From Crambe crambe (lineage: Eukaryota > Porifera > Demospongiae > Poecilosclerida > Crambeidae), in assembly GCA_963924555.1 (NCBI GenBank), contig OZ004584.1, positions 1,177,001 through 1,241,000 of the forward strand: a stretch of DNA of 64,000 nucleotides, in the 5' to 3' direction. A program made the position numbers and the translations under genes. The notes beneath the pieces were generated by a model that saw only the letters and a program-made list of their open reading frames with translations, did no database searches and was not told the origin of the DNA. This document shows, piece by piece, positions 23,452 through 62,894 of the stretch (position 1 is its first letter; each line of letters opens with the position of its first letter).

Positions 23452-24498
23452 ATGGATATTGACGATGATACAAGATATAACATTCATGAAAATGAATGCT
23501 ATGCAGCTGTGATGATTCCCTCAGTTAATAGAGAAGAAAAAAAGGAAGTTTTCTCAAAGAAGAAATGCTTCTGCACTATATTGATTGCAGTTGCAATCAT
23601 TGCATTTATTATCTGCTTTGTATTAGCCTTCATTGAGATTTCAAGTTTGAAGAGAACATTGAATACTTCTTTCAATCAGAAATATTCTGCACTGGAGAAC
23701 AGAACCCAGGAATTAATAAAGATTTCACTATCAGGATTGCATCCAAGTTATCCTGCAGCTTCATGTGCTGTTATTCAGCAGTTTATTCCCTCCTCTCCCT
23801 CAGGTCACTACTGGATCAGGTCCTCCAATGGGTCTGTTGTGCGTGTGTACTGTGACATGACCAGGTCATGTGGTAACATCACTGGAGGGTGGATGAGAGT
23901 GGTTGAGCTGGATATGAGTAACACATCCCAGCAATGTCCTTCCTCTTGGACAATGGCTTCATCACCTGCAAGGTCGTGCTTTGCTTCAACACCTACAACA
24001 TGCCCAGGAACAGTTTTTTCTACTCTAGGATTGACTTATAGTCACATTTGTGGGTGAACCATAGGATACAGTACTGGCACTACAGATGCCTTTGCTGAAA
24101 TATTCAACTTCAGAAATTCTCCGAGCATTGATGAGCCGTACGTGGATGGTATCAGTGTGACTCATGGATCACCACGACAACACATTTGGAGCTTCGGTGC
24201 AGGTTATGGTCATTATCTCTTCCGCTGTCCTTGTGATAATCCTAACCATACTCTCAATCAAGCTCCCTATCCACCTTCTTATGTTGGCAATAACTACTTC
24301 TGTGATGGTAACTACAATGGTGCATTGTGGGATGCTATGGACTGTACCACCAACTGCTGCACTTTCAACAATCCTCCGTGGTTCAGTGTGTCCCTCCCTG
24401 CCCCCACCTCTGATGATATTGAAGTGAGAATCTGTGGTGATGAGAATCCTGAGAATGAGAATATCCTTCTAAGCGTTCTGCAGTTGTATGTGCAGTAA
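23452..24498 (+). pseudogene. FBL-1: intronless fibrinogen-like membrane protein with one in-frame TGA
   Basis: The frame runs 349 codons from ATG 23452 to the stop at 24496-24498 except for TGA at 24055-24057 (codon 202), just after the conserved HICG (paralogues: KVCGKIRGYQ). Layout: tail 1-39 (ENECYAAV), helix about 40-63, stalk, fibrinogen-like module from about residue 95 (GHYWIRSSNG, VRVYCDMTRSCG, GGWMRV), then a C-terminal module beyond the stop (YVGNNYFCDG, ALWDA, NCCTFNNPPWF, DDIEVRICGDE). Unlike most copies there is no intron before the C-terminal module; only FBL-7 shares this. Either a young pseudogene, a null allele, or stop-codon readthrough; the first two are likelier. Coding sequence beyond the stop is otherwise undamaged. 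Confidence 0.8.
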
Positions 24499-25577
24499 TT
24501 TCAGTCCTTCCTTTTAGACCTAGCTATAATAACTATCACTATATACTGGCATTCACTGCATGATTACTGTAAAGATAATTAGCTAGTGTATGTGTGACTT
24601 AAATCTTGAATTTTGTATCACCAATAGCTAATCTGTTTTTGTTTTTTTCAGTTGGAAGAATAATTGTGGTGATTAATCATCAGGAGGGATGGAAAGTGCC
24701 TCCATTTTTATTATGCATTAGTAAACCAGTAAGCACACTCTTTGTGGGCAAGACTCATGTGCAAGGAAAAGGCTTGTTCATCTGGCTCACCTCCTTACCC
24801 ATGGTTTCCACTTATATAAAGGGGAATTTAGGGATGTGCCTTTGTTTGTTTGTGATATGACAATGAACTTCATGACTTCACAGCTACCCTCTTAACTGAA
24901 GTGTGTCATAATGTATCCACAGAACCCCCATTCCAACCATTGCAAGAAGGGATTTTCAATTATTGAACTGCTAACACCTACTCTGAAGCGAGGCTTGATA
25001 TCAAAAGCTATAGAGGATTCTGGAACAAGGCCAGGATGCATACGTTAGGGGTTTCAAACCAATGAACAAGAAAAGAAGAGAGAGTACAATCATAGAGTCC
25101 AGGGAGTAGAGGCCGGTGTGTTCACCCCCCCCCCCCCCCCCCCCAGATAGTAATCTCCACCTCTAAGGGGGAGGGGAAGAAAGAGAGCCTGGTACACACT
25201 GATCATAAAATTCACATGCGACTTCTGCCGCCCAGCGCGTTATCTCATTGGGCCAATGTGACTAATACCTTATCTGTCCTTCACTTGCTCAAATTGGATG
25301 AGGAAGGAGAGGCTATTTTTATTATTTATTATACTAAAGGGTGATGTGTTGAAGTGAGTGAGCTTTTAGACTCCAAATTATAGCAATGGCGACAATGAGC
25401 AAGATACAGATAGAAAAGAGTGAGAGTTAAAAGGTTGAACATCTTGAACATGGACACAAGTAGCTATAATGATAGCTGCAAGTTGATGTAGAGAGAAAAT
25501 TATTCCAGATAAAAAGTTTGCTAGATTGAGAGTTCCAAAGTCTGGGTTTTCTGTTAAAGAAAAAGTGTCTCAATCTG

Positions 25578-25910
25578 TTAGCTGGAGCATACATGGGATA
25601 GTTTTATAGTCCAAGTGGATAACCTGGTCCCCCTTGTACTGAACTGAACAAAACTGAGCAGGTCAAAATCCTTATTGAGATTGGATACTGCAAAGAGCCT
25701 GAGGATATCCTGAAGCTCAAAGACATACATGAGAGGAAGCATATTCAGTGCTAACAGGCGACTCTTATAATCAGACTTGAAGTCATTGAGTATGTATTTG
25801 GTAGCATGTCTCTGCACACATTCCAGCATTTCTATGTCTTTAACTAGGTGAGGTCTCCACAATAAAGCAGCTGTGAATGTACCAGACTTATATACTACAA
25901 GTGAGCGCAA
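25578..25910 (-). mobile_element. Non-LTR retrotransposon (LINE) remnant, C-terminal end of ORF2
   Basis: The open frame contains LECVQRHATKYILND, SDYKSRLLALNMLPL and FELQDILRLF, typical of the region after the reverse transcriptase in jockey/CR1-like LINEs of invertebrates. The start is truncated; no upstream RT catalytic motif is present. Confidence 0.7.
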
Positions 25911-26106
25911 AAAATTTCTTCTAAATAAAAAGTTAAGTAGGGAAAGCCATAAAATATAGCTGCATTATTACTATTCCTATCACTCTCAGCCTTCCTAATT
26001 TCAGTAACTACACCTATATCCAACTTAAATCCCCACTTCACCCCCTTCAGCAACAACAAGTGAGTCAAGTAACCATCCATCACCAAACTCAAGAACCACA
26101 GCAATA

Positions 26107-26178
26107 TTACCAAAATACTATTCCTACTTCACTCCTAGGACGCCTAATAGGAGTGAAGTAGGAATAGTATTTTGTAGG
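26107..26178. repeat. Perfect hairpin
   Basis: The arms 'caaaatactattcctacttc' and 'gaagtaggaatagtattttg' are exact inverted copies, extended by actcct/aggagt, around a loop of about 13 nt. Confidence 0.85.
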
Positions 26179-27519
26179 TACATAATGCTGATGATCAACA
26201 ATTGAAGTGTATTATTCAATATCAAACTTTACAGCAACAGCAATGTGTGCATGGCAACCTACCATACTGATTCCTAAGTATTTTTACTGTAAAATACTCG
26301 AGGAATTTAACTTAATACATTTTAAGTAACAAAATCGCTTAAATTCATGACATTTTATATGAAATCAAAGTTGACATGTTGGAGGTGCACACACTGGCAT
26401 GATGAAGTGAGCAGACTACATACAGCCATGTAGGATGAGCATGTATACTGAGGAATGGCTGGAACACCATCTGACCAGGATAGATAGTTAGCTAAATGGT
26501 TTAACTTGAAGACCTGCTTAGCTATGGGAGCCTGAGATCAAAATTCACACTGACAGGTTGGAGGCACTGGCATGGTGAAGCAGGCCCGTAGCAACTGGTC
26601 AGGCCAGTCAGGCCATCATGGCCTGACCACTTTTAAACCTTTGACCCGGTATCATTAGGGCTCACTCAACTATAATGCTATTCTCAAATTCTCAAGCACA
26701 CTGCATGCCCACAATGTATACCTAGCTTTGATATCTATTTATAATGCCCGAATATTAGTAATTTCCTCTTTCTCGAGGTCTGATGGAGCAGGACTTTTCA
26801 GTTTACTCAAAAGATATAACAGTACTGCTAGTGCTAGAAGCTTCAGGCTCAGGCTCAATTTCTTTCCCAGGCAGGCATCTTTTCTTTCAGTATCAATATA
26901 CGTATGGCCACTATTTGTTGATCATAAGTTTCTCATCAGATGGTTTTGCTCAGACTGATGCTGGCGGGCAGCATATATAAGCCATTATGTCATTATTTTG
27001 ATAGTTATTTTCTTGGAAACACCACAGGAGTTGATACAGTCAGAAGTGATGCGGTATAGAAATCCAATTATAATGGCCAAATCCTGTAGGTAGAGTAAAC
27101 TAATGCGGGCGGGGGATGAGAAACTTGTTAGTGGCTTATACTAAAAATGATGACCTAGATGTTGCTAAGTCAATGCTGACTGGCTGCAGCAGCTGTGTTG
27201 CTACATTTTATTCATCATGTCATGCATGTCAAAATGGAATCAGCAAAACAATTAAAATGCTGACGTAGCTAGATGTTGCAGCTGTGTGCATGTTATTCAT
27301 CATAGTTAAAATGCTGACTTTAGATGTTGCTAAGTAAATGCTGACTGGTTGCAGCAGCTGTGCACATGCAAGGGCATCAAGCCCGAAGCAGCAAGAGGAC
27401 ATGCAACTGGTGTAGATTCTGAAATATAAATTGGTACTATATTTAGCTACAGTTTACTGCAGTAAATGGACATTATTATGCTGACAAGAGCCTACCATGT
27501 ACTCTCCATGCATTCTTTG

Positions 27520-27974
27520 CCAATCACAGGAGAAGGCATGCATACGCCTTCTCCGCTAACGCATACCTGCTCTTTTGATGGGCTCTCTCAGCCTTCACTA
27601 GTTGCCTCATGATGGATCTTTTGATCTTTGTGCCGTCTTTTGAAAGTAAGCATATAGGCAGCAAGTACTCCTTTTAAAAATGGTCGGAGTACAAAAGATC
27701 AAAGTACAAAACTTTAAAGGTCAGAGTACATTAAATGGTCTCTTATTGCACACACACATTAATTGGTTCTATTGTGGACAATGGCAGAAATCACTTGCAT
27801 ACCTCCAGCAATGATGAAGTAGACAAGTACATTCAATTTTCCACTACCAAATGATGCATACTTGGAAGAATAATGCCTTGAACTGCAACAAACACTTTTC
27901 AAAGAGTGATCTAGTTATAATAAGATCATGATATCACTATTCTAGTCTACCTAAGAGCAAATTTTAGGCTGTCA

Positions 27975-28046
<72 letters not shown>

Positions 28047-28390: not shown

Positions 28391-28426
28391 AAAATTGGGC
28401 GGGGTTTTGGCGCGCTTTTGATGTCT

Positions 28427-28875
28427 TCAGGCATTTATAAACTCATCAGGGAACCTGATCCAGTATTGACTTGAAGGAGAGGAGGGAGCAAACTGGAGAA
28501 TAGCAGTACAGGAGGTTGCAGGATGACTCGAATGTAAACCTGGGCTTTCAGATAACTGCTCAATTCTTCTTTCTACAGTCAATAATGTGCCTTGTAGAGT
28601 CGATACGTCAGATTTCAATCTTGAAATGTTAATGCAAAATAGCCAGACACTGCACCCAACAAAATCATCACTGTGAATGCAGTGACAAATGCACAGAAGA
28701 AAATTTTAAATTTATTTCTGTTTTTGCTGGTAGATGGTCCACTCTCACTGTTCATACCAGACCTAAACATTGTTATTTGGTGGTATCGATTCTCGTACAT
28801 GTTTTGCATCTCACAGTCTTTAGTTATTTCATCCATTCCGACATACACAGGATTGGCATCATGTGTATTGCTCAT
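28427..28875 (-). pseudogene. FBL-2: truncated and frameshifted fibrinogen-like fragment
   Basis: ATG at 28875 opens a tail (NPVYVGMDEITKD, MYENRYHQ), then a helix (FFCAFVTAFTVMILLGAVSG). The frame breaks near 28615-28618, where one base appears to be missing in the 'TFQ/ISRLKSDV' region. The shifted frame carries the stalk and the start of the fibrinogen-like module (HPATSCTAILQFAPSSPSSQ, YWIRFPD) and stops at 28427, before the VYCDMT motif. The rest of the gene is missing. The break lies beside the TTC19 duplicate. Confidence 0.75.
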
Positions 28876-30493
28876 GACCACAACTGTACGTATGTTGTGA
28901 TCTATTAATTATACTACTTTTATACCGCACAAAACAGCAAATACTCATCACCATAATAATTATGTAAATACCTGCAGATAGCTACACATATAGACTGCAA
29001 AAAGGAACTATAATGTGAATCCATGCATTTCCCTTTTATCTTTGTTTTCTTAACCTCAAGGTTATCGAGGAAATGATGTACCTGAAAATAAGCAAGGTAC
29101 TCTTTAAATAAGGAGGAAACCATATCAAGAAGTTTTTTTATTTAAAAAAAAAAAAATTCATGTTTGAAAACAAGGATTACACAAATAGCAGTAAACTGCT
29201 ACACCAGTGTGTAACCACAAAAAAAAAAACAAAAAAAAAGAATAATGGCAGAGTTAATCTCTTAAAAGTAACTAGTGACTGAGTCTGCAGTGTATCTGCT
29301 GGGAGATTGTTCCAGCATGTTGAAACACTGTTGACAGTAAAAGACATGTTGGAAGCATTAGTTTTCACATGTGGTTGAAGGAACTGGTTAAGCAGACAAC
29401 CATCCCTATCAATTTTGCGAACAAAGACATCACTCGGGAAATAAAGCAGACCTGCATGTATTTTGAATGCGGTGCATTGCTTCAAAAACATTCTTCGGTT
29501 TCTCAGAGTAGGTAGTCCAGCTTTGTCTAGGAGATCATTGTAGCCACAATCCCACTGACGCAGACACATCCTCAATGCAAACTTCTGGACCTTTTCCAGT
29601 TTTTCAATATTTTTGATAAGGTGAGGGTCCCATACTTGAGCAGGTGAGGACGGACCATAGTGATATACAACTGTAGAAGACCCTCATTATAAAACCTCCG
29701 GTAGAGTAGGCCAATTAGCTTTCTAGCCTTCACACACACGTAATCAACATGCTGCGGCCATGAGAGATCAGATGTTAATAATACACCCAGGTACTTGAAG
29801 GAAGTAACATGCTGTAGACTTAGATTGTTTAAAACAAATTGTGGCGGTTTCAGCCCGTTACGCTTCCTTGACATTGAAGTTGTGCATTGTGTAGTCTTTA
29901 TAATAGTATGTTTATAGCTTCACAGTTGCTTTGATGTAACTTCAGACATTAGCTAACACTATGTACACGAAGTTACTGTATCATAATTATTATCGGTGAT
30001 GCCCCAAGCACCCACACACTCAAAGTGAACAGATGGGCCAGCCCAGCATTCAATCCATGGAACAGACTTCAGATAAGATACAAACTATTAAGACTCTGCT
30101 CACCCTGCCTGTCCACAGCTGCAGTATATTGGATCAATGACTGCATGTGTTTACTATGAATGGACTGTTATACATGTAGCTAATTAATGATCTGATATTC
30201 TGCTTAGCTATAATGTGCATGGTTTCTCTATAATTATGTATAGACAGATTGACCTACCTAAATGGGGTATAGAGTCCAAAAGAGCTAATTATAAATTATG
30301 CATAGCTAGTTATTGCTTGATCATCATTCAGGTTAATGTAATACATGCTGCTTATGGATAGGCACTATGATTGTGACAATGTAGTCATGCTTTAGTCAAA
30401 AAGGGGCTCATATAAAAATAATATTGAGTAAGCTACATAGTTTCATTGTTTGTGAGTTTGAATTTACAAAAAAGCCTTACTAATAATGGCTTT
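28876..30493. other. Interval between FBL-2 and FBL-3
   Basis: Apart from the LINE remnant at 29177-29874 it is AT-rich noncoding sequence. No gene was seen in 29885-30490. Confidence 0.55.
29177..29874 (-). mobile_element. LINE remnant: post-RT region in two frames
   Basis: The upstream frame (29874-29572) has FKYLGVLLTSDLSW, AKRKLIGLLYRRF-like and MVRPHL strings, as in CR1/jockey ORF2 proteins just after the RT domain. The second frame (29575-29177) continues the same protein (KCTAFKIHAG-type text, NNLPADTLQTQSLVTFK) after a frameshift. It ends in an A/T-rich tail. Dead element. Confidence 0.75.
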
Positions 30494-31720
30494 TTACTGG
30501 ATGTAAATTTCATATGCTTGAATTACAATGTCTTCATCACTACGTGGCTGATCACGACACACTCTCATCTCAATGTTGTCGGTTGTATGCACTGGAAGTT
30601 GCCTATAAAACCAGGATTAGAGGAAGAGGAAGAGGCACAGTGAGTACAGCTTCCTCCATTCCATAGAGGCCTGTTAATTACACACGTCTGTGTACGTGTA
30701 TATATATCTGTATTGTAAATGCCATCACAAAAGTAATGAGCTCTATTGATGAAACTTGGTGGCCGAGATGAACAACCTACGTATAAAAGATGAATTAAGT
30801 AAGGTTAAACGTTAATAGACAGTTAGCTATTAGATACCTCGAAGACCAACACCAAACGTCCAAATGTGTTGTCTTGGGGATTCACCATAAGTTAGACTGA
30901 TGCCATCAACATAATTGGAGTCTATAGTGGGAGAACCTCTTATATGACCATCATTCAGTATTGAATCAACTATTCCTTTTTGATAAGCTCTGATCATCCC
31001 ACAGACCCTGGAGTAGATGAAACCATGTGAAGGAAAAATGACTGAAGAACAGTTTGGACTGTCAATATTCATTATACATGATGGTATGAGGCAATCTATT
31101 CCGTTCCTGAGAGCATTGGGACACTGGCTACTGCTGTCTCTCATGTCCAGTTCAGCCACTCTCATCCACCCTCCAGTGATGTTACCACATGACCTGGTCA
31201 TGTCACAGTACACACGTACAGGAGAGCCATCGGGGGACCTGACCCAGTAGTGACCTGAGGAAGAGGAGGGAGCAAACTGCAGAATAGCAGCACAAGAAGC
31301 TATTGGATAATTTTGAAGTATTGCCATGGTCCGATTTTCTATTGCTGAAAGGTCTTGACTGAATCTCATTTCAATCATCTGAATAGAACTGTTTGTGAGA
31401 GCCAGTGCTTCTTGGTTAGAAAGTGAAATAGATTTTTGAATGGAGGTAAGCTCAGAATTGAATCGTGAAATTTCAACAAATGCAGCTACTGCAATGCATA
31501 CAGCAACTGCACAGATCAGCATAACCAGTGCAAATGCAAAAAAAAATTTATTGCAGCTTCTAAATTTGCTTGCAGTAACCCTTTCATTTTCATTAAGGTT
31601 AGATTCTGCTCTGGTTTTTTGAATCCCATAGCATACGTTCTCATCAAGTTTCAATTCAGTTCCGGTGATTTCATCCACCTGAGCATAAATGGCATCATCC
31701 ACGTCAACTTCTTCACTCAT
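30494..31720 (-). pseudogene. FBL-3: fibrinogen-like membrane protein with a frameshifted last exon
   Basis: Exon 1 31720-30838, exon 2 30776-30494, joined phase 1 by GT/AG. Exon 1 is fully open: tail with AIYAQVDEI and ENVCYGIQKT, helix about 58-84, stalk, fibrinogen-like module (GHYWVRSPDG, RVYCDMTRSCG, GGWMRVAELDMRD, YVDGISLTYG, HIWTF). Exon 2 starts correctly (YFCDG, RPLWNGGSCTHC) but four bases are missing where paralogues encode NPPWFYRQL, so the frame shifts; the lost frame then continues with DNIEMRVCRDQ to a family-like ending and stop. The shifted protein would lose the last third of the C-terminal module. Possible causes are a pseudogene, an allele or an assembly error. Confidence 0.8.
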
Positions 31721-36960: not shown

Positions 36961-37011
<51 letters not shown>

Positions 37012-37038: not shown

Positions 37039-37103
<65 letters not shown>

Positions 37104-37710: not shown

Positions 37711-39649
37711 ATGAATGTAGTTGACATGGACAATGCCATTTATGCTCAGGTGGACAAAATCTCTGGAAGCCTCGATGAGAATGTATGCTATGGGATTCAT
37801 GAGACTAAAACTACTACGGCAGAATCCAACCTTGATGAGAATGAAAAGGTTACTGCAAGCAAATCTAGAAGCTGTAATAAAATGTGTCTTGCATTTGCAC
37901 TGGTTTTGCTGATGTTGTGTGCAGTTTCTGTATGCACTTCAGTAGCTGCATTTGTTCAAATTTCACGATTATATTCCGAGCTTGCCTCCATTCAAAATTC
38001 CACTTCACTTTCTAACCAAACAACTGAGAGCACAGCTTTCCAAGAAGCACTGGCTCTAACAAACAATTCCATTCAGATGAGATTCAGTCAAGATCTCTCA
38101 ATGATAGAAAGCCAGACCATGGCTTTAATTCAGAATTACACAGAGAGATCTGGTTTATATCAAAATTATCCAGCAGCTTCTTGTGGTGCAATTCTCCAGT
38201 TTGTTCCCTCCTCTCCTTCAGGCCACTACTGGATCAGGTCCTCCAATGGCTCTGCTGTGCGTGTGTACTGTGATATGACCAGGTCATGTGGTAACATCAC
38301 TGGAGGGTGGATGAGAGTGGCTGAACTGGACATGAGAGACAGCAGTAGCCAGTGTCCCAGTGCTCTCAGGATGGGAACTGCTTGCAATCCTACACGCACA
38401 TGTGTGATTAACTCTGACAATGCAAACTGTTCTTCAGTCTCCTTTAGCACACATGGTTTCAACTATTCCAGAGTGTGTGGAATGATCAGAGCCTATCAAG
38501 TTGGGACACCTGATGCATTTGGTAATCATGGCGAACCCATGAGACTAAGGAATTCTCCCACTCTGGACTCCAACTATGTTGATGGCATTAGTCTAACTCA
38601 TGGGTTATCCCCAAGACAACATATTTGGACCTTTGCTGCCATTGAAGGTATAGCTACATGTAGCTACTGTGATTTTAAGGAATCTTAAAAATCAGTCATC
38701 ATGCAGGCATCATCCACTATAGCTATACACATGCGTACTGCTTGAATTATTGAAAATGTGCTCAGATTTGCTTCAAGTAAGCCTTGAAGAGCTGGCTGGT
38801 GACTGTTCTTACTAGTATAGTTCTGTACCTGTTAGCCATTAGATTTTCGAGGCTCATGCACATGAGAATGCATGCACACTCAGCATTTCAAGATTCCCTA
38901 AAACCACGGTAGAGCCAGATGGTTTAGCTATAGCCTAAGGACTCCAAAGTTGACTATACACAACCATTGATGAAATGAACTCTGATTCCGGTATCATTGC
39001 TTTCAATTTTTGGGTTAGTGCCCTTAAGTTTAGATAATAATAATTATTAATAGGAATAAGTGTTTTCCCTGTGCATATTTAGACAGATCCATACACATAG
39101 CTATCACCACAGTCCCAAGTAGAAAAATTAGTGGCTTTTCGCCACTTTTTAAACTCATGACTCATGTGGCCATGGTCTGGAAATTTGGTGTGGAGATAGT
39201 ATAACCATTGTAGAACACATGACAGAAGTTTGGATAAAATTATTCGAGAAATATAGCAAATTTCAATCAAGCTAATACGATTTCTACATGGGAGTATGAC
39301 TAATATTAATTTTATACACTTGTGTGCACAATAGTTGCTTTCTTATTAAACAGGAACTGATCCTGATTGTGTGTTGCCATCAGCAAGAGGACTCTCTTCC
39401 ATTCACATTCATTTCTTCTGTGATGGAACGATAACGTTGCCTGGACAAGCCCGTTATGCCTGCCTGAATACCAGACCTCTTTGGAATGGAGGAAGTTGTA
39501 TTAACTGTACTTCTTCTGATAACCCTCCATGGTTCTATAGGCAGCTGCAAGACCACACCATTGACAATATCGAGATGAGAGTCTGTAGAGATGAAGGGGC
39601 TGACAATGAAGATGTGGCAATTGAAACTTACGAATTTTATATCCAGTGA
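37711..39649 (+). CDS. FBL-4: fibrinogen-like type II membrane protein (2 exons)
   Basis: Exon 1 37711-38647, exon 2 39354-39649, phase-1 junction (gtatag ... cag), 410 aa. Tail 1-57 has AIYAQVDKI and ENVCYGIHET; helix about 58-83 (LAFALVLLMLCAVSVC); stalk about 84-152 with several N-glycosylation sites. The fibrinogen-like module spans about 153-310 (PAASCGAILQF, GHYWIRSSNG, RVYCDMTRSCG, GGWMRVAELDMRD, SRVCGMIRAYQ, YVDGISLTHG, HIWTFAA). Exon 2 encodes the Cys-rich module (FFCDG, RPLWNGGSCINC, SDNPPWFYRQL, DNIEMRVCRDE) ending FYIQ. No signal peptide is present and charge favours a type II orientation. It is the only open + strand family member. Recognition or adhesion at the cell surface is inferred from domain type. 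Confidence 0.85.
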
Positions 39650-43900: not shown

Positions 43901-44689
43901 TTTGAACTGCCTAGCTATAATCCTTTCTCCACCCCTTTTATGGGATGTTATTATCCCTTGTGGCTTGTAGTGAGTGGGCAGAGATTCCTTTTGAAATCAT
44001 GGCAACCATATGGCCTCCCCCCCCTATGGAATAGATAACATATCTATATACCACAATGGAGTACTGGGAGCTGGAGAAAATAGTAGAGGAAATCTCTCTG
44101 GAAGGCTGCTCTGTAATAACAACAAAAGAGCTTTAGAAAGTCATGGCTGGCTATAGACCACATGTGTCTGCAATCACTCGGCATGGCACACAATACATAA
44201 TTCAAAATCAAGCAACCAGAAATATTTACACCAGACTCTTTCCCCCCTCTTCTTCCCTTCCTCCTGTGCACAGGTGCAAGTAAGTGTATGTGCATGTGCA
44301 AAGTATAGTAAGTCGGAAAAGAGTCTATATTATTATCTACACAGATTATAGCTGGGCAATAACACCTTGAATAGAGAATGCTACAGATCTTCCAACATCT
44401 TATATAAGTCTACTTTCCAAGGCTAGCTAGTGAAGATTCAGCTGGATGAGGCTCCATAGGCTACACATGACATTATTGTTATTTTATTGTTTCAATTAAC
44501 CTCTGTGCTCTAAAGTAGCTAAATGTGACATGATTTGGAAAACCCACATTGTAGCAAAAATTAAATTTTTTTGCTATGTTATCTATGGCCCTCTGGCTCT
44601 CTACTGTGCCAATTTCAAAGCTCTAGCTCCTATGATGCCTGAGGAACAGCTCCTAGAAAACTCCAGGTAACATTTTGAAAAAGCTGAAT

Positions 44690-47377: not shown

Positions 47378-48749
47378 TTACTGAATGTAAAATTGAAAAG
47401 CTTGAATATTGATATCTTCATCACTTTGTGGCTGATCGCGACACACTCTCATCTTGATGTCATTGGTGGTGTTTTCTGGCAGTTCCCTATAGAACCACAG
47501 AGAATTGTTGGGGGAGGTCATTTCACTCCATAAGGGGGTGGGGTAGCAGTTTGCTTCAGGACTGCCGACAAAACCATCACAAAAGGAGTGATTTCCAACA
47601 AATGCCGGTGGATTGTCTGCACAATCACTAGGACCTGATGATATTGAAATAATGAAATATTAATTTTAGCCTAATAACTCATTGTCTGTGCATGTATTGA
47701 TCCAACTTTAATGACCTACAGTGGAAACTCTGATAAAAGGGCACTCTGAAAGAGGACAACCTAGCCTCTCAACAAAGGACAATCTAAATTTACGTTTATG
47801 TAGCTATAATATGTACACTCTATACAAAATAATCTCCGAAAGAGGACAACCTCTCTGCAAAGGACAAAAAGCTGGGTCCATTATTCAGAGGTTCCTCTGT
47901 AAATGCTATTGGTCCAAATTTCTAGCCATCGTACATTATCTCCATAGCTACGTATATACCTGCAGCTGCAAAGGTCCAAATGTGTGTGTGTTCACTGGTA
48001 GGTGATCGATGAGTGAGACTGACGCCATCGACATAATTGCTCTCCACATTAAAGTCACTACTACTTCTGCCTTGAAATCCATCAGGTGCTCGATATTGGT
48101 ATCCTCTGATCTTCCCACATACTTTAGAGTAACTAACACCGAATGTATTAATAGTGGTTGTAGGGCAACTTGGATAATCGGGGTTACTGATGACACAGGT
48201 TCGTCCAGTGCAATTCTGTCCCTGACTCAGTGTTAGACTACCAGGACACTGGCTACTGCTGTCTCTCATGTCCAGTTCAGCCACTCTCATCCACCCTCCA
48301 GTGGTGTCACCACACGACCTGGTCATGTCACAGTACACATGTATGGCAGAGCCATCAGAGGACCTGACCCAGTAGTGGCCTGAGGAAGAGGAGGGAGCAA
48401 ACTGGAGAATAGCAGCACAAGAAGCTGCAGGATGACTTCGAAATAAACCTGTGTTGATTAAATAACTGATTATTAGCTGTCTTCTATCTTCAATCCCAGA
48501 GAGGCTCTGCCTGAGTCTCATATTTGTTTCCTGTAAACCTCTTCCTACATTTTCAAAGTCTCGAAGGGAGGCATTTAATTGTGAAATATCAGCAAATGAA
48601 GCCACGATGAATCCCAGTGCAATTATTGTGATCATCATCCAGGAAGCGATACCAACCAAGACGCAGGCAGACTTGATGTTCTCTTCGGGAGTGATTGAGG
48701 GAGAACTGCAAGATGTTTCAATACTGCTTAGTTTCTTCTCAACAGCCAT
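47378..48749 (-). CDS. FBL-5: fibrinogen-like type II membrane protein (2 exons)
   Basis: Exon 1 48749-47960, exon 2 47634-47378, phase-1 junction, 348 aa. The short tail (1-26) has no tyrosine. Helix about 27-53 (VLVGIASWMMITIIALGFIV), short stalk. The fibrinogen-like module (HPAASCAAILQF, GHYWVRSSDG, HVYCDMTRSCG, GGWMRVAELDMRD) has the distinctive inner part NCTGRTCVIS...SKVCGKIRGYQYRAPDGF and VDGVSLTHRSPTSEHTHIW shared only with FBL-6. Exon 2: AFVGNHSFCDG, YPTPLWSEMTS, LWFYRELPENTTNDIKMRVC, ending FYIQ. The two CC-type cysteines of other copies are absent from 'WSEMTSPNNS'. A family-A MITE lies in the intron (47719-47902). Confidence 0.85.
47719..47902. mobile_element. MITE family A copy (FBL-5 intron)
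   Basis: It begins 'cagtggaaactctgataaaa' and ends 'tattcagaggttcctctgta', with the full internal series. Confidence 0.75.
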
Positions 48750-49302: not shown

Positions 49303-51192
49303 TTACAGGATGAAAAATTGAAGAGCTTGAATATTGATATCTTCATCACTTTGTGGTTGATCACGACACACTCTCATTACAATATCATTGGTGTTTTTTT
49401 CTGGAAGTTCCCTATAAAACCACAGAGGACTGTTCGGAGAGGTTACTTCACCCCATAGAGGAGAAGGGTAGCAGTTTGTTTCATGATTGCCAACGAAACC
49501 ATCACAAAAAAGGTGATTTCCAACGAATGACGGTCGATGTTCTGTGCAATCACTTCTAGTACCTAATAGATGGTGTACGTAGCAATATTACTTACTATGG
49601 TTATATATAAGCTAGCAATCTATATGTGTTTAGTGGAACCTCCACTCCAAAAGAGGGCAAACCTCAACAAAGTAGTAATATTATTATACGTACTTCAAAA
49701 GAGGACTACCTCTCTGTGAAGGACAAAAGTCCCTTTTTTTTGGAAGTTCCACAATCCACATGGCTACGTAGCTAGCTATAGCTATTGTACTTGCATGTAC
49801 GTAGCTAGCTAGTTAGCTGTTACATTTCAATAGCTAGCTAATAGCCAATTGAAGCAGCACAATTAAGGAAGGAGGGACGTAGCTATGTTACCTACGTATA
49901 GTTGACTAGAAACACGAGTGTCATGAACAGGTGGCTAAATACATGCAGTGAAACCTGTCCATGGCTAGCGACCACCTCTGGGTCATCAAAAGGTGGTATT
50001 TTAATGGAGGTGGTCTCTTTATATGCAGAGGTCAAAATCAATGGTACAAGCACTATTGGGACATGACCAAGTGGTCTTTAAAGAGAGGTGGTCTCTGAAT
50101 AGGGTGGCCTCTTAATACAGGTTTCATTGTTAATAGCTATATACCTCCAGCTGCAAAGGTCCAAAGGTGTGTATGCCCATTGATGGGTGATCGATGAGTG
50201 AGACTGATGCCATCGACATAGTTACACTCGACACTGAAGTCACTGTTACTGCTGCCACGAAATCCATCAGGTGTCCGAAATTGGTATCCTCTAATCTTCC
50301 CACATATTTTAGAGTGGCTAACACCATATGTGCTAAAGGTGGTTGTAGAACAACTCGGGGCATTAACGTTACTGATCACACAGGTTCGTCCAGTGCAATT
50401 CCGTCCATGACTCGGTGTTAAATCACTGGGACACTGGCTACTACTGTTTCTCATGTCCAGTTCAGCCACTCTCACCCACCCTCCAGTGATGTTACCACAT
50501 GTCTTGGTCATGTCACAGTACACACGCACAGCAGAGCCATTGGAGGACCTGATCCAGTAGTGGCCTGAGGAAGAAGGGGAAGCAAGTTGGAGAATAGCAG
50601 TGCATGAAGCTGCAGGACGACTTGAAAATAAACCGGAATACTCAATGGTATCAGTTAACTTTTGTGCTTTATCTTCCATTGCCAAGAGGTTCCGACTCGA
50701 TGCTATGTTTGCTTCTAGTAAAAGCTCGTAGTTTTTAAATAAAACGGAGGATTTTAGTGGTGAGATTGTAGAAAACGCTGCAATTGCAACTACTAATAAA
50801 CTCACTGCGACAATAATCAAGAGAGCGATACTAAGCAAGATGCAGACAAACTTTTTGTCACATCCAGTTTGGTTATTCTTAAAAGGACTCAAGATTTTTT
50901 TTACTTCCAAAGTTGAAACGGCATCTTTCTTCTTAGGTTGCTCACCTACTGTGTTAGATGTATATAGATTGTAGTGCCTATTCTTTATAGTTGATGTACT
51001 GCTTTCAATTTCAAGGTTGAATCCACGTAGACTAACTGCAGCATTCGAAAAATTCTCCTTTATAGAAGGCATAGAGCACATTTGAGAAACACTTTCTCGG
51101 CTGACTTTGGGATTATCAATCTCCTTCAGTGGATTGTCAGCAGCTGTGTTTACAGTTGAAGGTTTGTTCTCAGGACTGTTTTTGGTAGCCAT
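49303..51192 (-). CDS. FBL-6: fibrinogen-like type II membrane protein with a long tail (2 exons)
   Basis: Exon 1 51192-50145, exon 2 49562-49303, phase-1 junction, 435 aa. The cytoplasmic tail is the second longest of the family (about 114 aa; HYNLYTSN is its only tyrosine patch), with a Lys-rich end before the helix at about 115-140 (VCILLSIALLIIVAVSLLVV). The stalk is short. The fibrinogen-like module has GHYWIRSSNG, RVYCDMTKTCG (family norm TRSCG), GGWVRVAELDMRN, CTGRTCVIS and CGKIRGYQFRTPDGF, all closest to FBL-5. Exon 2: SFVGNHLFCDG, SPLWGEVTSPNSPLWFYREL, MRVCRDQ, ending FFIL rather than the usual YIQ. The family-B MITE ends about 14 bp from exon 1. Confidence 0.85.
49632..49753. mobile_element. 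MITE family A copy (FBL-6 intron)
   Basis: The left end 'agtggaacctccactccaaa' and right 'tttggaagttccacaa' flank a shortened internal series. Confidence 0.6.
49945..50131. mobile_element. MITE-like element family B (FBL-6 intron)
   Basis: The ends 'gcagtgaaacctgtcc' and 'acaggtttcattgt' are inverted. The interior repeats 'aggtggtctctt'-like strings. A related degenerate copy is at 715-905. Confidence 0.7.
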
Positions 51193-51640: not shown

Positions 51641-52690
51641 TTATTGAACGTAAATCTCAATGAACTCAAATTCAATATCTTTATTATAACGATGATCATC
51701 ACGACACAGTGTCATCTCAATGTTGTCAGTGGTGCTTTCTGGTAGCTGCTTATGGAACAGTGGAGGATTATTTCTGTAGCAACATGTATTATCACCACAC
51801 CCATCTCCATCCCAAAGAGTGCTGGTCCTGCACGACATGTCCAAGCAATTAAGAAATCCATCACAAAAATAATCTCCACCGACAAAACCAGGTGCATCAC
51901 ATTGCCCAGTGCTACACTGAGCAGCAGCAAAGGTCCAAATGTGTTGCTGCACTCTATTCCCGTGTTTCAGAATAATACCATCGACATAGTTTGAGTCTAG
52001 AGTCACCTCACTGGGACTCAGATTACGGCCACCAAATCCATTTGTGAGATATATTTGATAGCCTTTAATGGAGCCACAGACTTTGGAATAAAAGATACTA
52101 TTCAAAGCGTAAAGTACAGCTGAAGTACAGGACGGTGAAGGGTTAGTTACTCTACATCTGCGGCGTCCATGGAAGGTGTAGTTCTGAAAACCAGGCGGAC
52201 ATTCGTGTTTCCTTTGGCTCATATCCAGTTCAACCACTCTAATCCACCCTCCAGTGACTCCACCACATGATCTGGTCATGTCGCAGTACACACGCACAGC
52301 AGAACCATTGGAGGACCTTATCCAGTAGTGGTTTGAGGGAGAAGATGGATCAAACTGAAGAATAGCAGTACAGGAAGCTGCAGGAAAATTTGGAAGCAAA
52401 CCTGAGCTGTTCAAAGTACTAGCCAAGTACTCTATTTCATTTTGTGACACTGAAATGTTTCGAGTCAATCTCATACTTGCTTCTAGTAAAGTCATTTCAA
52501 AATTCTCAAACTGTTCTATAGAGGCTTCTAATTGTGGAATTTGAGGAAATATTGCTATCACAACTGCCAGTGCAACCACAGTGATGTTGATCAAGAAGGT
52601 GATACTAACCAAGATGCAGGCAAACTTTCTGTCACACTGGCAACTCATTTCAGGACTGGCAGCAGAGACTTTTGGCAGTTTTCTCTCCAT
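51641..52690 (-). CDS. FBL-7: intronless fibrinogen-like type II membrane protein
   Basis: A single open frame of 349 aa from ATG 52690. The tail is short (1-22, no tyrosine); helix about 23-49 (ACILVSITFLINITVVALAV). The fibrinogen-like module has NHYWIRSSNG, RVYCDMTRSCG, GGWIRVVELDM, SKVCGSIKGYQ and YVDGIILKHG. It continues without an intron through HIWTFAAAQCSTGQCDAPGF into the C-terminal module (VGGDYFCDG, STLWDGDGCGDNTCC, NNPPLFHKQL, DNIEMTLCRDD), ending IYVQ. The CC pair and the lack of an intron place it with FBL-1; both may represent an older or separate subfamily. Intact, so the intronless form is not simply a dead retrocopy; no poly-A tail was seen. Confidence 0.87.
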   Translation of the reverse strand: MERKLPKVSAASPEMSCQCDRKFACILVSITFLINITVVALAVVIAIFPQIPQLEASIEQFENFEMTLLEASMRLTRNISVSQNEIEYLASTLNSSGLLPNFPAASCTAILQFDPSSPSNHYWIRSSNGSAVRVYCDMTRSCGGVTGGWIRVVELDMSQRKHECPPGFQNYTFHGRRRCRVTNPSPSCTSAVLYALNSIFYSKVCGSIKGYQIYLTNGFGGRNLSPSEVTLDSNYVDGIILKHGNRVQQHIWTFAAAQCSTGQCDAPGFVGGDYFCDGFLNCLDMSCRTSTLWDGDGCGDNTCCYRNNPPLFHKQLPESTTDNIEMTLCRDDHRYNKDIEFEFIEIYVQ

Positions 52691-53672: not shown

Positions 53673-53812
53673 TCTGCTAAGTCCTCCCACCCAATCAGTG
53701 TTCAGTGTACTTAATTATATGGTATAGCTACGTACATAATTATACATACAAAAAAAACCTCTCAAATTAGCTCTATATGTAGCTACATTGGGTTGTTTTT
53801 ACAGTTCTTTCT

Positions 53813-55620
53813 TCACTGGATATAAAATTCAAATGCTTCAATTGCCACATCTTCATTACCAGCTCTTTCATCTCTGCAAACTCTCATCTCAATGTCGTCA
53901 GTGGTGTGGTCTTGCAGCTGCCTATAGAACCATGGAGGGTTGTCAGAAGAAGCACAGTTGGTGCAATTTCCTCCATTCCATAGAGGTCTGGTATTCTCAC
54001 AGGTATTTCTCCCTAGCCCACTTACTCCATCACAGAAAAAGTTAGGATCATTTCTGAAAAAGTGTCCTTCTGGTGGCAGTCGCATACAGGGTGAGTTCAA
54101 AGGGACTGAAAGAAATCAATAAAAAAAAAAAATCATAATCTACATGCATAAGTGAAGTGTTTTAATGCATTTGCTGCAGCGTATGAGAATGACTTTGAGT
54201 GCACCATGCATTAAAATATGTCTAATCAAATTCCAGTTGGTCCTTACAGAACATTCTTATTACTCACTTTTTTTTTTTTTTTTTGCAAGCTCTGACACAC
54301 ATTGGGTTTCAGTGGTTTTAAAGAATGCAATTAGCTATTGATCAACTCCACTAGGCTCCTGTGCACTTTCAGCACAGTTCCTCAAGTGTGCATGCATATA
54401 ATTTTAGCATATCATGAAAGTGTGCTGTAATTTAAAGCATAAAGCACACTTTTTAGAGGATCTGATTTGTGACCAGCAGTAATTACCTATAATGTACAGC
54501 TTTTGATACCTGCTTCAGCAGCCAAGGTCCAGATATGTTGTATCGGGAATGTTCCATAAGTTAGACTAATACCATCTACATAGTTGGAGTCCAGAGTGGG
54601 AGGATCAGGTCGAGTGCCAAAAATACCGAATGCATCAGGTGTTCCAACTTGATAAGCTCTAATCATCCCACAGACTCTGGAATAGTTGAAATTATGTGCG
54701 GTAAAAGAGATTGAGGAACAACCTGCATCATTAGTGTCGATCATACATGTGCGTGTAGGATTGCAAGCAGTTCCCATTCTGAGATCACTGGGACACTGGC
54801 TACCACTGTCTCTCATGTCCAGTTCAGCCACTCTCATCCACCCTCCAGTGACTCCACCACACGACCTGGTCATGTCACAGTACACATGCACAGCAGAGCC
54901 ATCGGAGGACCTAATCCAGTAGTGACCTGAAGGAGAGGAGGGAACAAACTGGAGAATAGCACCACAAGAAGCTGCTGGATAATTTTGATATAAACCAGAT
55001 CTTTCTGTGTAATTCTGAATTAAAGCCATGGTCTGGCTTTCTATCATCGAGAGATCTTGACTGAATCTCATTTCAATCATCTGAATGGAACTGTTTGTTA
55101 GAGCCAGTGCTTCCTGGTTAGAAAGCGAAGTGGACTTTCGAATGGAGGCAAGCTCAGAATTCAATTGTGAAATCAGAACAAATGCAGCTATTGCGATAGT
55201 CAGTGCAACCACTATAACAAATATCAAGAGTGTAATGGTAACCAAAATGCATGCAACTGTCTTGTCACACTGATTCTTTTTACTATGAGAACTGGAGATT
55301 TTCTTGACTTTGGTGTTGGTCTCGCTGGGATTCTCCTGTAGAGCTATAGGTTCCTCAACAGCAACTTTTATAGCAGTCTTGTTTAACATGGAATGTACGT
55401 TCTCTATTGTAGCCATGGATCCAGAGTACATTTGATTATCGAATGCTGTAGATTCACTCCATGGACCAGTAGATTCGCTCTCTCGATTGACCTCAGAATA
55501 CATAGGGATATCAGAGAGTATCTCAGGCTGATGTTTTTTCTTAGCAGCATGGCTATTCTTCTTTGTCATATCCACCACAGCATATGTGGGAATACTAGCA
55601 GCTTCAGAATTGGAGTCCAT
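53813..55620 (-). CDS. FBL-8: fibrinogen-like type II membrane protein, mosaic (2 exons)
   Basis: Exon 1 55620-54510, exon 2 54105-53813, phase-1 junction, 467 aa, the longest member. The tail (about 122 aa) has several tyrosine motifs: IPTYAVVDM, IPMYSEVNRES, DNQMYSGSM, nearly the same order as FBL-10. Helix about 123-149. The stalk (SNQEALALTNSSIQMIEMRF, ESQTMALIQNYTERSGLYQN) is instead almost identical to FBL-3 and FBL-4. Fibrinogen-like module: GHYWIRSSDG, HVYCDMTRSCG, GGWMRVAELDMRD, CNPTRTCMID, SRVCGMIRAYQVGTPDAF, YVDGISLTYG. Exon 2: PPEGHFFRNDPNFFCDG, RPLWNGGNCTNC, SDNPPWFYRQL, DDIEMRVCRDE, FYIQ. The tail-stalk switch falls inside one exon, which points to recombination rather than exon shuffling. 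Confidence 0.87.
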
Positions 55621-57620: not shown

Positions 57621-59109
57621 TCACTGTATATATATTTCAAATGCTTCAATCGCCACATCTTCACTGCTAGCCCCTTGATCTCTGCAAACTCTCACCTCGA
57701 TATTGTCAGTTGTGTGATCTTGCAGCTGCCTATAGAACCACGGAGGGTTATCAGAAGAACCACAGTTAGTACAACTTCCTCCATTCCATAGAAGTCTAGT
57801 AGTATTACAAAGTCCCAGTCGTAGCCTAAACCTACTCACTCCATCACAGAAAAAGTTAGGATTATTCATGAAAAAGTGTCCTCTTGGTGGTAGTTGACAG
57901 AAAGTGAAAAAAAGGCCTGAATGAATAGGGGGGGGGGGGGGGTAGATATGTAAAGAACATGCCATAGCTATGGCTACATTGTACATTATATTGGTGATAG
58001 CTATAATTATAGTTGTACTGAGAGAGTTTTACATGATCTGACTGAAACTGACCAAATGAATAAGTTTAGCATGTAGCTAGCTAGCTATAATTACCACTAT
58101 CAGCAGCAAAGGTCCAAATGTGTTGTCTTGGGGATACTCCATGAGTTAGACTAATGCCATCAACATAGTTGGAGTCTAGAGTGGGAGAATTCCTTAGATT
58201 ACCATGATTATCAAATGCATCAGGTCCCCCTACTTGATAGGCTCTGATCATTCCACACACTCTAGAATAGTTGAAACCATGTGTGGTAAACGAGACTGAA
58301 GAACAGTTTGCATTATCAGAGTTGATCACACATGTGCGTGTAGGATTGCAAGCAGTTCCCATCCTGAGAGTACTGGGACACTGGCTACTGTTGTTTCTCA
58401 TGTCCAGTTCAGCCACTCTCATCCACCCTCCAGTGACTCCACCACATGACCTGGTCATGTCACAGTACACACGCACAGCAGAGCCATTGGAGGATTTGAT
58501 CCAGTAGTGGCCTGATAGAGGGGAGGGAGCAAACTCCTGAATAGCAGCACAGGAAGAAGCAGGATGACTTGGAAGTAGACCTAAACTCTGTAACTCATCA
58601 GTTAATTGCTGAATATAAAAATCAGATCTCTCTGTGTAACTCTGTATTAAAGCCATGGTCTGGCTTTCCATAGATGAAAGGTCTTGACTGAATCTCATCT
58701 GAATAGAATAGTTTATGTGAGCCAGTGCTTCTTGGAAAGCTGTTCTCTCAGTTGTTTGGTTAGAAAGTGAAATAGACTTTTGAATGGAGGCCAGCTTGGA
58801 ATTCAATCGTGAAATTTGAACAAGTCCAACTATTCCGATACACAGAGAAAATGCACACATGAGCAAAACCAGTGCAAATACAAAAACCATTCTATTGCAG
58901 CTTTGAGATTTTATGCCAACTTCAGAGTCAGGGTTTGCAGTACCTCTTTCATCTTTATCAAGGTTGAATCCTGCAATGGTAGTTTGAGTCTCATTGTGTT
59001 CATCTTCATGAAGGTTGACTTCTGCCCTGGTAGTTTGAATCCCATAGCATACATTCTCATGAAGGTCCTGAGCATAAATGGCCTTATCCGTATCAAAGTT
59101 TACACTCAT
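57621..59109 (-). CDS. FBL-9: fibrinogen-like type II membrane protein with a shifted acceptor (2 exons)
   Basis: Exon 1 59109-58095, exon 2 57916-57621, 436 aa. The start is ATG 59109 (MSVNFDTDK); the open frame extends 4 codons further without an ATG. Tail 1-73 contains AIYAQD and ENVCYGIQTT plus an internal duplication (QTTRAEVNLHEDE / QTTIAGFNLDKDE). Helix about 74-99. The stalk is FBL-4-like but ends with QQLTDELQSLGLLPSHPA, as in FBL-10. Fibrinogen-like module: GHYWIKSSNG, RVYCDMTRSCG, GGWMRVAELDMRN, CNPTRTCVINSDNANC, YVDGISLTHG. At the intron end about 28 bp present in FBL-10 (the acceptor and codons up to the first Cys) are missing; a nearby attcag/GC keeps phase and restores a Cys (FFTFCQLPPRGHFF). 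The rest of exon 2 is intact (NFFCDG, WNGGSCTNC, NPPWFYRQL). Confidence 0.8.
57931..57942. repeat. G run in the FBL-9 intron
   Basis: About 12 G (12 C on the coding strand) lie 15-25 bp before the inferred acceptor and act as part of its pyrimidine tract. Confidence 0.85.
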
Positions 59110-60511: not shown

Positions 60512-61919
60512 TCACTGGATATAAAATTCAAATGCTTCAATCGCTACATCTTCATTGTCAAACCTTTCATCTCTGCAAACTCTCATCTCAATATCATCAG
60601 TGGTAGTATTTTGCAGCTGCCTATAGAACCATGGAAGGTTGTTAGAAGAATTAAAGTTAGTATAATTTCCTCCAGTCCATAGAGGTCTAGTAGTATTGCA
60701 GACTCCAAGTTGTTGATCACTTATTCCATCACAGAAAAAGTTAGGATTATTCCAGAAAAAGTGTCCTTCTGGTGGTAAATGAATGCAGGAAGAATCACGA
60801 GGGACTATAAGAAAGTGAAAAGTAAAAATAAACATTCCATACACATGGTGGGTAGTTGTACATAGGGAGAATAATTATAGTTAGCAGCTACTGAAAGAAA
60901 AAAGAAAATGAAGAAAGTAGCTAGCATGCTATATACTAGCAACATAATGTAGCTACATATAGTTATGTACCTGCTTCAGTAGCAAAGGTCCAAATGTGTT
61001 GTCTTTGGGGTACTCCACGAGTTAGACTAATACCATCAACATAGTTGGAGTCTAGAGTGGAAAAGTTCCTTAGCTTTGGATTACCATGATTACCGAATGC
61101 ATCAGGTACCCCAACTTGATAAGCTCTGATCATTCCACAGACTCTGGAATAGTTGAAACCATGTGTGGTAAACGAGACTGAAGAACAGTTTGCATTGTCA
61201 GAGTTGATCACACATGTGCGTGTAGGATTGCAAGCAGTTCCCATCCTGAGAGTACTGGGACACTGGCTACTGCTGTCTCTCATGTCCAGTTCAGCCACTC
61301 TCATCCACCCTCCAGTGATGTTACCACATGACCTGATCATGTGACAGTACACATGCACAGCAGAGCCATTGGAGGACCTGATCCAGTAGTGGCCTGAAGG
61401 AGAGGAGGGAGCAAACTGGAGAATAGCAGCACACGAAGGTGCAGGATGACTTGGAAATAAACCTAAACTCTCTAACTCATCAGTTAGTTGCTGGATACTT
61501 CGAATGGAGGCTTGTAATTGTGAAAGTTGAACTGTTGCTGTTATTGCAACTACCAGAGTTACAACTACAGCAACTATCAAGAAAGCGATAGTAACCAAGA
61601 CACATGCAAACTTCTTATCAGATTGCCAGTTCTTTTCATGGGAGCTCTTGACTTTATTTTCTCGTGGAGGGTCCTGAACAGCAACTGTTGTTGTGCTCAA
61701 CTTGGAATACATGTTCTCTTCTGTCCCCGTGGATCCGGAGTACACTTGGTTATCAAAGGCCGTATTTTCACTCCTTGGAATGTTAGACTCGCCGCTCTGA
61801 GACTCTTGATTGATCTCAGAATACATAGGAATATCGGGTGGATTAGCAGAACGGCTCTTTGGCTTATTATCTCGAAGCACATCATAAGCAAGGATGCTTG
61901 GATCAGAATTGGACGCCAT
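60512..61919 (-). CDS. FBL-10: fibrinogen-like type II membrane protein with altered key residues (2 exons)
   Basis: Exon 1 61919-60971, exon 2 60804-60512, phase-1 junction, 413 aa. The tail (about 104 aa) has LAYDVL (fits the ITIM pattern [SIVL]xYxx[IVL]), IPMYSEI, DNQVYSGS and NMYSKL. Helix about 105-129 (ACVLVTIAFLIVAVVVTLVV). The stalk is very short (QLSQLQASIRSIQQLTDELE). In the fibrinogen-like module the universal VYCDMTRSCG reads VYCHMIRSCG (two substitutions). In exon 2, where paralogues have WNGGSCTNCASSDNPPWF, this copy has WTGGNYTNFNSSNNLPWF: both cysteines and a proline are lost together. The frame is otherwise intact to FYIQ. Either divergence for a new ligand or early decay; the first is supported by paired Cys loss. 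Confidence 0.85.
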
Positions 61920-62215
61920 TAGCTAGCTATAACTAGTTATAGATTACTCTGGAACGAAAAGGAAGTAGTATAGTGTATAATGCGCATGCTCAGTATTAGC
62001 TAAAACCAGTGTACATTAAAATTTAATTATGTACCGCGACGCGACATAGCCTGTAGACTACTTTGGCTTGTACTTTCACTTTATACAGGATCTGAAATTA
62101 GACTACATTTTAGCTAGTATTGCTAATTTCATAAGCCAGACTTTGAAATTTATACACAGCCATCCCATCCCTACTTGTCTGTATTTAGAATAAATAGCTA
62201 TCTACATCTATATAC

Positions 62216-62241
62216 ATAGGTGTAGGAAGGAGTTTGGAAGT

Positions 62242-62282
<41 letters not shown>

Positions 62283-62578
62283 AGTGTAATACTGTGAGAC
62301 TGTAACAAGTGTGCATGCACCTTGCAAAACTAGGTACGTATTTACCATGCTCACTGTTGAAACACTTGTCATAATAATAATTATTAAAAGACCAAAAATA
62401 AAATTTCCAATCACTGTTTAAGGATATAAATTCTTTAGCTATTTCAACTTGAGTGCATGCAGTCCCATGTATCCAAATGCATTAGTACAGTAGCAGCTGG
62501 AAAAGTGAATGTGGAATGTGGGGGGGGGGGGGGGGGGGGGGGGGGGCAATGCCCCCCCCCCCTTTCCTACGCCTATGA
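62216..62578. mobile_element. Inverted-end element containing G homopolymers
   Basis: The left end 'cataggtgtaggaagga' and right end 'cctttcctacgcctatg' are inverted. A run of about 40 G follows the left end; a run of about 27 G and then C's precede the right end. It is noncoding. Confidence 0.75.
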
Positions 62579-62736
62579 TATAGCTGTAGCTACATTCAGA
62601 CTCTGAAAGACATCTTTGAAGTGACACAAGCAAGGTTGCAGGTGCATGTGATTATAGTAATCATATTGGCTCCTAGCTAAATTAGTCTACATAATATGAT
62701 GTCTTACATGATGTCTCCTCCTCATATCCCCTCCTG

Positions 62737-62894
62737 GAATGTTAGACCCGCTGCTCTGAGACTCTTGATTGATCTCAGAATACATAGGGATATTGGAGAG
62801 TATTCCAGGTGGATTAGCAGAATGGCTTTTTGACATAATATATTATCTTGAAGCACATTATAAGCAAGGATGCTTGGATCAGAATTGGATGCCA
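62737..62894 (-). pseudogene. FBL-11: 5' fragment duplicate of FBL-10
   Basis: ATG at 62894 opens MASNSDPSILAY followed by NVLQDN, as in FBL-10 (DVLRDN), then a small insertion shifts the frame; the later strings (ATPPGIL..., SEINQESQSSGS) persist in other frames to about 62737. Upstream flank 'agctataactagttatagat' is also shared with FBL-10. Helix and ectodomain are missing. Confidence 0.75.

Follow-up and report, generated by a model that had tools for sequence, protein, structure and literature searches.

Invertebrate FREPs, such as those of snails, form expanded families of fibrinogen-related recognition proteins that are thought to act in immunity and to be diversified by recombination; they carry Fibrinogen_C, usually together with Ig domains, and are secreted. 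Intelectins are likewise secreted lectins. Vertebrate natural killer cells have clusters of type II lectin-like receptors, such as Ly49, with the C-type lectin fold, variable heads and tails with and without tyrosine motifs; these receptors follow the logic of immunoreceptor tyrosine-based inhibitory (ITIM) and activation (ITAM) motifs. FIBCD1 is described as a vertebrate type II endocytic receptor with a fibrinogen-related domain, FReD (PMC9994688, PMC9449597, PMC3908420). In sponges, the SRCR and NLR expansions are reported to provide many candidate immune receptor domains or genes, with some NLR genes clustered (PMC4772301, PMC12909245), and in another sponge Fibrinogen_C (PF00147) genes were described as up- or down-regulated after microbial patterns (PMC6208332). 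Little is known of the genes with which sponges recognize microbes or each other. Here we analysed a stretch of 64,000 bases of the sponge Crambe crambe (assembly odCraCram1.1, contig C6 positions 1177001-1241000, part of chromosome 4), hereafter the window, which contains eleven loci of a receptor-like family that is very large and physically concentrated.

The Crambe family resembles FIBCD1 in its predicted type II topology, its C-terminal fibrinogen-related recognition head and, as predicted from its tails, endocytosis. It differs in that just the first ~40-65 residues of the head are detectably related, and in that hundreds of genes stand against the single-copy FIBCD1 gene. The best PDB sequence match is to the intelectins, or X-lectins (4wmq, 6usc, 4wmo; E 2e-5 over 63 residues), whereas the remaining ~200 residues of the Crambe ectodomain have no match. 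Expansion and recombination are shared with the FREPs, but the Crambe family fails Fibrinogen_C. With Ly49-type clusters it shares clustered type II receptors, variable heads and tails with or without tyrosine. The ITIM pattern occurs in 5 of 26 Crambe tails versus 2.3 expected (p ~0.07). Unlike the sponge SRCR and NLR expansions as described, it is built from other domains and is concentrated on one chromosome, with exchange between tails and ectodomains. We found no description of this family in the open-licence literature (titles and abstract starts; subscription papers were outside the search). The reading with the best support from the sequence is that of lectin-like recognition receptors, with endocytic or phagocytic tails, in a family that is clustered and recombines.

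Family size, clustering and exchange of tails and ectodomains

One haplotype was analysed, comprising 143,139,886 bases in 119 contigs, with 9,083,326 bases for C6; the published assembly has 143,197,480 bp in 124 scaffolds and a chromosome 4 of 9.08 Mb (PMC12166358). Five protein searches of the genome, merged and counted with a start-distance rule, gave 303 separate family loci; a sixth protein query, counted by eye, added six more, of which five lie on C9 and the other on C18. The family thus holds at least 309 loci on 17 contigs, broken copies counted; the number is a lower bound because, of the 565-679 candidates in a search, 115-150 were scored. The sequence-only reading of the window had named single-copy orthologues of low variation across sponges as the finding that would speak against it; within the genome of C. 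crambe, the at least 309 variable loci do not fit this condition. C6 contains 195 of the 303 loci while making up 6.3% of the assembly, and six clusters (1.20-1.28, 1.46-1.65, 4.81-4.94, 5.42-5.78, 6.23-6.44 and 7.49-7.55 Mb) contain 165 of the 195. Half of the six queries were C6 sequences, a possible bias toward this contig; the other three (from C17, C12 and C9) still matched many C6 loci. Since duplicated BUSCOs are given as 0.8% and curation took out 18 haplotypic duplications (PMC12166358), most family copies should not be haplotigs, as judged genome-wide. Most scored matches were free of internal stops, and broken copies and fragments were plentiful in the tiled chromosome-4 clusters. 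Singly fetched genes were mostly chosen for full-length matches, so that broken and intron-bearing copies are under-represented among them.

The tails and the fibrinogen-like parts of these genes were then compared. In the tree of the fibrinogen-like part (61 of 62 genes with a transmembrane (TM)-like or signal-peptide-like segment; 23 of 62 in the unlabelled tail class 'oth'), the tail types were scattered. A single clade per tail type was rejected by the approximately unbiased (AU) test for four of the five named types (p 3e-48 for NECY, 7e-26 for YSEIN, 5e-5 for YAQV and 0.0075 for DNQCY). Among the 1225 pairs formed by 50 genes, near-identical duplicates included, 68 combined similar fibrinogen-like parts (>=78%) with different tails (<40%), and in 13 the tails were similar (>=70%) but the fibrinogen-like parts different (<=66%). 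The clearest mosaic is formed by C6:1262423 and C6:1254875, both on the minus strand and neighbours just outside the window, which are 97.3% identical over a tract of 1224 bases that begins in the stalk, includes the intron and ends beyond the stop codon, with tails 19% identical and each like a tail used elsewhere. Because the intron is also near-identical, this tract is not explained by protein conservation alone. We found 38 shared tracts of >=350 bases and >=93% identity in three tiled clusters, many of them block or intergenic duplications; a few others start in the stalk and extend beyond the fibrinogen-like part in both partners, for example c1 of the window with C6:1615105 (93.3% over 774 bases). 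In the window clade, synonymous divergence is twofold higher in exon 2 (0.31) than in exon 1 (0.16), which suggests that the two exons have separate histories.

These sequence comparisons show that tails and ectodomains have separate histories through recombination, in both directions, with like heads on different tails and the reverse. The clustering with duplication and decay proposed from the sequence alone was borne out by block and tandem duplications, broken copies and recombination among paralogues. With paralogues that lie in clusters and have exchanged tails and ectodomains by recombination, the family has the marks of a diversifying multigene family, and recognition would be its role. 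Such exchange is a simple route to combinatorial germ-line receptor diversity without somatic rearrangement.

Some duplications were observed apart from this exchange. C6:5548677 and C6:5572181 are identical receptor frames of 461 amino acids, 23.5 kb apart, by recent segmental duplication or residual assembly duplication. The same two origins apply to a ~20-kb region of C6 found at 1.469-1.490 and again at 1.629-1.652 Mb, which is repeated in pieces at ~93-99% identity, 160 kb apart. In four adjacent receptor genes just outside the window (C6:1254875, 1262423, 1274930 and 1282605), the full fibrinogen-like part is preceded by a second copy of its first ~37 positions.

Topology, tails and the nature of the ectodomain

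Most fetched members appear to be of the type II class (class I), with tail, TM segment, stalk, short fibrinogen-like subdomain and Cys-rich core. Class II, found on C17, C19 and C9 (L051, L054 and L059), has a signal-peptide-like start and an ectodomain as in class I, with stalks of 70 residues in L051 and 174 in L054. In class III, on C3, C21 and C12, the core occurs without the fibrinogen-like subdomain; a signal-peptide-like start was present in two of the three fetched genes, the third being cut at its 5' end. With signal peptides called by eye and hydropathy, the branches without a TM tail look secreted. Because the GGW region and all that follows it form a single unit in the secreted-looking class III relatives, the domain border is suggested to lie near the GGW motif rather than at the intron; the border formerly drawn between two ectodomain modules was an intron position.

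The type II membrane features read from the sequence alone agreed with hydropathy, with the sequon density (1.01 per 100 amino acids in the tail, 4.06 in the stalk and 2.19 in the ectodomain) and with the TM flanks, more positive on the N-terminal side in 36 of 51 genes. A single N-terminal TM anchor with a cytosolic N-terminus is therefore predicted, the secreted-looking branches excepted. Stalk length varies from 67 to 173 residues among otherwise similar receptors at C6 5.43-5.65 Mb, apparently via repeated units.

Most of the predicted cytosolic tails bear tyrosine motifs, also as first read. Among 26 non-redundant tails (<70% identical) kept of 51, with expectations obtained by shuffling, NxxY was present in 23 (5.4 expected), YxxPhi in 20 (10.4 expected) and strict NPxY in five. 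Conserved NxxY/NPxY motifs of the kind looked for in endocytic receptors are thus found in these tails; PTB/SH2 and AP-2 proteins are known to bind patterns of the NxxY and YxxPhi kind.

The ectodomain consists of a short fibrinogen/intelectin-like subdomain followed by an uncharacterized Cys-rich core of ~200 residues. The fibrinogen-like module of the sequence-only reading holds for the first ~40-65 ectodomain residues, where the resemblance is detectable, and not for the rest, where none could be detected. As worded, 'fibrinogen-like receptor' was not supported: none of 13 distinct family proteins matched Fibrinogen_C/FReD (PF00147; four tried at E up to 1 and ten at E up to 0.1, c7 in both), and none of the 81 PF00147 matches of the genome lies on chromosome 4. 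In hhalign, a 42-row family profile matched eight Fibrinogen_C sequences of C. crambe over 41 N-terminal columns only (probability 63%, E 7e-5), not over the full ~220 residues; for the core by itself the probability was 1.3%. A fold common to the core and FReD without sequence signal is possible. Intelectin membership was rejected as well, since a 12-row profile matched PDB intelectins over positions 3-65 of 264 only (E 2e-5), and the core gave no credible PDB match by profile and no Pfam match. COLFI (PF01410) reached 13.8-23.6 bits, under the cut-off of 26.2, in the first subdomain only, with no match listed for L054 and L060. A prokaryotic or viral origin was also tried: 24 stretches of the prokaryotic collection and five viral ones matched short patterns (two per collection), and none encodes a relative. 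Similar proteins appear to occur in other sponges and cnidarians. The true Fibrinogen_C genes of C. crambe (the 81 matches) likewise form tandem clusters (C5:989-1054 kb, C19:1235-1259 kb, C8, C9 and C18), and some of these genes contain internal stops.

Sequence variation and the weighing of alternatives

The ratio of nonsynonymous to synonymous divergence (dN/dS), approximate throughout because the paralogues recombine, was 0.61 for the ectodomain of the 5.5-Mb type (16 genes) and 0.35 for that of the 1.5-Mb type (five genes), compared with 0.62 and 0.39 for tail, TM and stalk. For the nine genes of the window clade, the ratio was 0.50 in exon 1 and 0.36 in exon 2. When 14 genes of the 5.5-Mb type were aligned, two indel-rich stretches that make up 46 of the 275 columns, placed after HIWTF and before PLWDG, held 26 of the 52 most variable columns (mean pairwise difference >=0.5, gaps scored as differences); nine further variable columns lie at the N-terminal edge.

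A filter-feeding sponge would use such a repertoire to sort microbes and particles. The stalk would oligomerize the protein, the variable stretches would bind glycans or proteins of microbes or particles, and NxxY and YxxPhi would recruit PTB/SH2 adaptors or AP-2, leading to endocytosis or phagocytosis; tyrosine-less copies may serve as decoys or adhesive forms. We consider microbe or particle recognition the likeliest use, with about even chances of being right.

Several observations weigh against this reading. The hypervariable stretches (proportions of synonymous and nonsynonymous differences, pS 0.37 and pN 0.33-0.37; dN/dS 0.84-0.99) are divergent, with no positive selection by pairwise counting. 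Other 20-codon stretches of the 5.5-Mb type range from 0.24 to 1.17, several like the hypervariable ones; the other two sets contain one stretch at 1.14 and one at 1.61, which makes three stretches above 1 in all, counted without a significance test. The five genes of the 1.5-Mb type are without the peaks of the 5.5-Mb type. Heptad periodicity reached p<0.05 in only 24 of 55 stalks, and tail type NPCYQ is compatible with a single clade (p 0.79). In the tails, the ITIM excess is not significant (p ~0.07), YxN is not enriched (2 of 26 versus 5.5 expected), and the shuffle test ignores the common ancestry of the tails and so overstates their independence. NxxY and YxxPhi would also fit endocytosis of any ligand, self matrix included. 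AlphaFold2 on 15 rows from the window alone gave a model with a mean predicted local distance difference test (pLDDT) score of 34 and a predicted template modelling (pTM) score of 0.23, which was not used.

An alternative is an adhesion or matrix family, whose proteins would attach to extracellular matrix, spicule or collagen surfaces of the sponge itself and whose copies would provide dosage or cell-type diversity and not recognition. The weak COLFI similarity of the first subdomain, the secreted-looking branches and an overall dN/dS below 1 are in its favour; the COLFI scores remain under the curated cut-off, however, and tail swapping with many decayed copies is unusual in structural proteins. 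We regard this explanation as unlikely. Another alternative is a largely neutral birth-and-death process, in which duplication-prone chromosome regions would yield copies without selected diversity. The abundant broken copies and fragments of the tiled clusters, the block duplications and the variable stretches with dN/dS near 1 would be expected from it, but most scored matches have no internal stop, the ectodomain dN/dS is 0.35-0.61 and motifs are retained in tails less than 70% identical; neutral turnover as the main explanation is quite improbable.

The clusters on chromosome 4 could also be highly variable genes of tissue self/non-self recognition, with ectodomain contacts signalled via the tyrosine tails. 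Clustering, mosaic genes and variable stretches agree with allorecognition, and sponge grafting specificity is described as implying a polymorphic genetic system, in a study whose graft transcriptome is reported without enrichment for aggregation-factor-mediated adhesion (PMC5450542). Against this, hundreds of loci on 17 contigs exceed what a small linked locus needs, and the word fibrinogen does not occur in the available text of the graft study (PMC5450542); we give allorecognition a small chance only. There is a similarly slim prospect that chromosome 4 forms a chromosome-wide recognition complex, possibly the sponge allorecognition system, in which cassette recombination would re-pair variable ectodomains with signalling tails and receptor sets would differ between individuals. 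An alternate-haplotype assembly (GCA_963924525.1) is deposited (PMC12166358), and with a chromosome-level assembly and this second haplotype the question of sponge recognition loci becomes directly testable in C. crambe across haplotypes, individuals and grafts.

The eleven loci of the window and their neighbours

All eleven loci claimed from the sequence alone were recovered at their places by stop-to-stop frames, tblastn, motif scans and a hidden Markov model (HMM), with seven open genes (c4-c10), two near-intact copies (c1 and c3) and two fragments (c2 and c11). The HMM, built from the window copies, returned 11 frames at similarities well above chance (E 4e-149 to 7e-12), nine of them its own seeds; c11 was detected via motif and alignment and not by this model. 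The ends formerly given to the cluster, 23452 and 62894, lie on or within one base of the start codons of c1 and c11.

Table 1 Receptor loci of the window (positions counted from the first base of the window)
Feature	Position	Strand	Description
c1	23452..24498	+	single exon, NxCY tail (NIHENECYAAV); frame open throughout except for one in-frame TGA (24055-24057)
c2	28454..28630	-	fragment: stalk and start of fibrinogen-like subdomain
c3	30494..31720	-	two exons; exon 1 open (YAQV, NVCY tail), exon 2 frame-broken
c4 exon 1	37711..38647	+	tail (YAQV, NVCY), TM, stalk, fibrinogen-like subdomain, first half of core
c4 exon 2	39354..39649	+	Cys-rich C-terminal core half; GT/AG phase 1, 706-bp intron
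c5 exon 1	47960..48749	-	short tail, no tyrosine
c5 exon 2	47378..47634	-	GT/AG phase-1 join
c6 exon 1	50145..51192	-	long tail, NRHYNLY
c6 exon 2	49303..49562	-	GT/AG phase-1 join
c7	51641..52690	-	intronless; short tail without tyrosine; divergent core
c8 exon 1	54510..55620	-	tail: YAVV, YSEV, FDNQMY
c8 exon 2	53813..54105	-	GT/AG phase-1 join
c9 exon 1	58095..59109	-	tail: IYAQ, NVCY; donor at 58095 or 58098
c9 exon 2	57621..57916	-	start 57916, or 58000 by another in-frame acceptor
c10 exon 1	60971..61919	-	tail: YDVL, YSEI, FDNQVY, YSKL
c10 exon 2	60512..60804	-	GT/AG phase-1 join
c11	62731..62960	-	tail-coding fragment only; 92.6% identical to c10 over 204 bases

Of the seven open genes, all except the intronless c7 consist of two exons. 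Because c4 (with a later Met at 37726 used as start in the splice-join analysis), c5, c6, c8 and c10 all join GT/AG at phase 1, one intron common to these five is suggested; c9 joins in frame with an ambiguous acceptor, and for c3 we found no exon join that keeps the whole Cys core. A separate C-terminal frame was paired to 23 of the 62 fetched genes with a membrane-like segment, some of these genes being broken rather than spliced. The paired genes all fall within one 32-row half of the fibrinogen-like-part tree, among unpaired rows; the ratio of one- to two-exon genes is not readable from this set, in which single genes were picked mostly for full-length matches.

The TGA codon of c1 is shared by C6:1653901, ~450 kb away, with 92.3% identity over 803 bases around it and a sense codon at this place in the three relatives shown; this could reflect common descent, conversion or a mutational hot spot.

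Other frames accompany the receptor copies. Inside the cluster, an open frame of 403 amino acids (42785-43996, minus strand) has a hydrophobic stretch at its N-terminal end and, with a Pfam Death match below cut-off (E 0.09), a possible Death-like region; a search against PDB gave chance-level matches only (best E 0.27), and the frame could be a signalling partner or unrelated. Near c2, a minus-strand frame at 29177-29683 resembles, on sequence impression and with no Pfam match, the end of the reverse transcriptase of a retrotransposon without long terminal repeats (non-LTR). A methyltransferase-like fragment (34685-35140, plus strand; TRM5-TYW2 E 2e-4, below cut-off) lies between receptor copies, and pieces of a chitin-synthase-like gene (13296-17985, minus strand; PF03142 E 5.5e-26, ChitinSynthase_IV_N below cut-off) were found beside the cluster.

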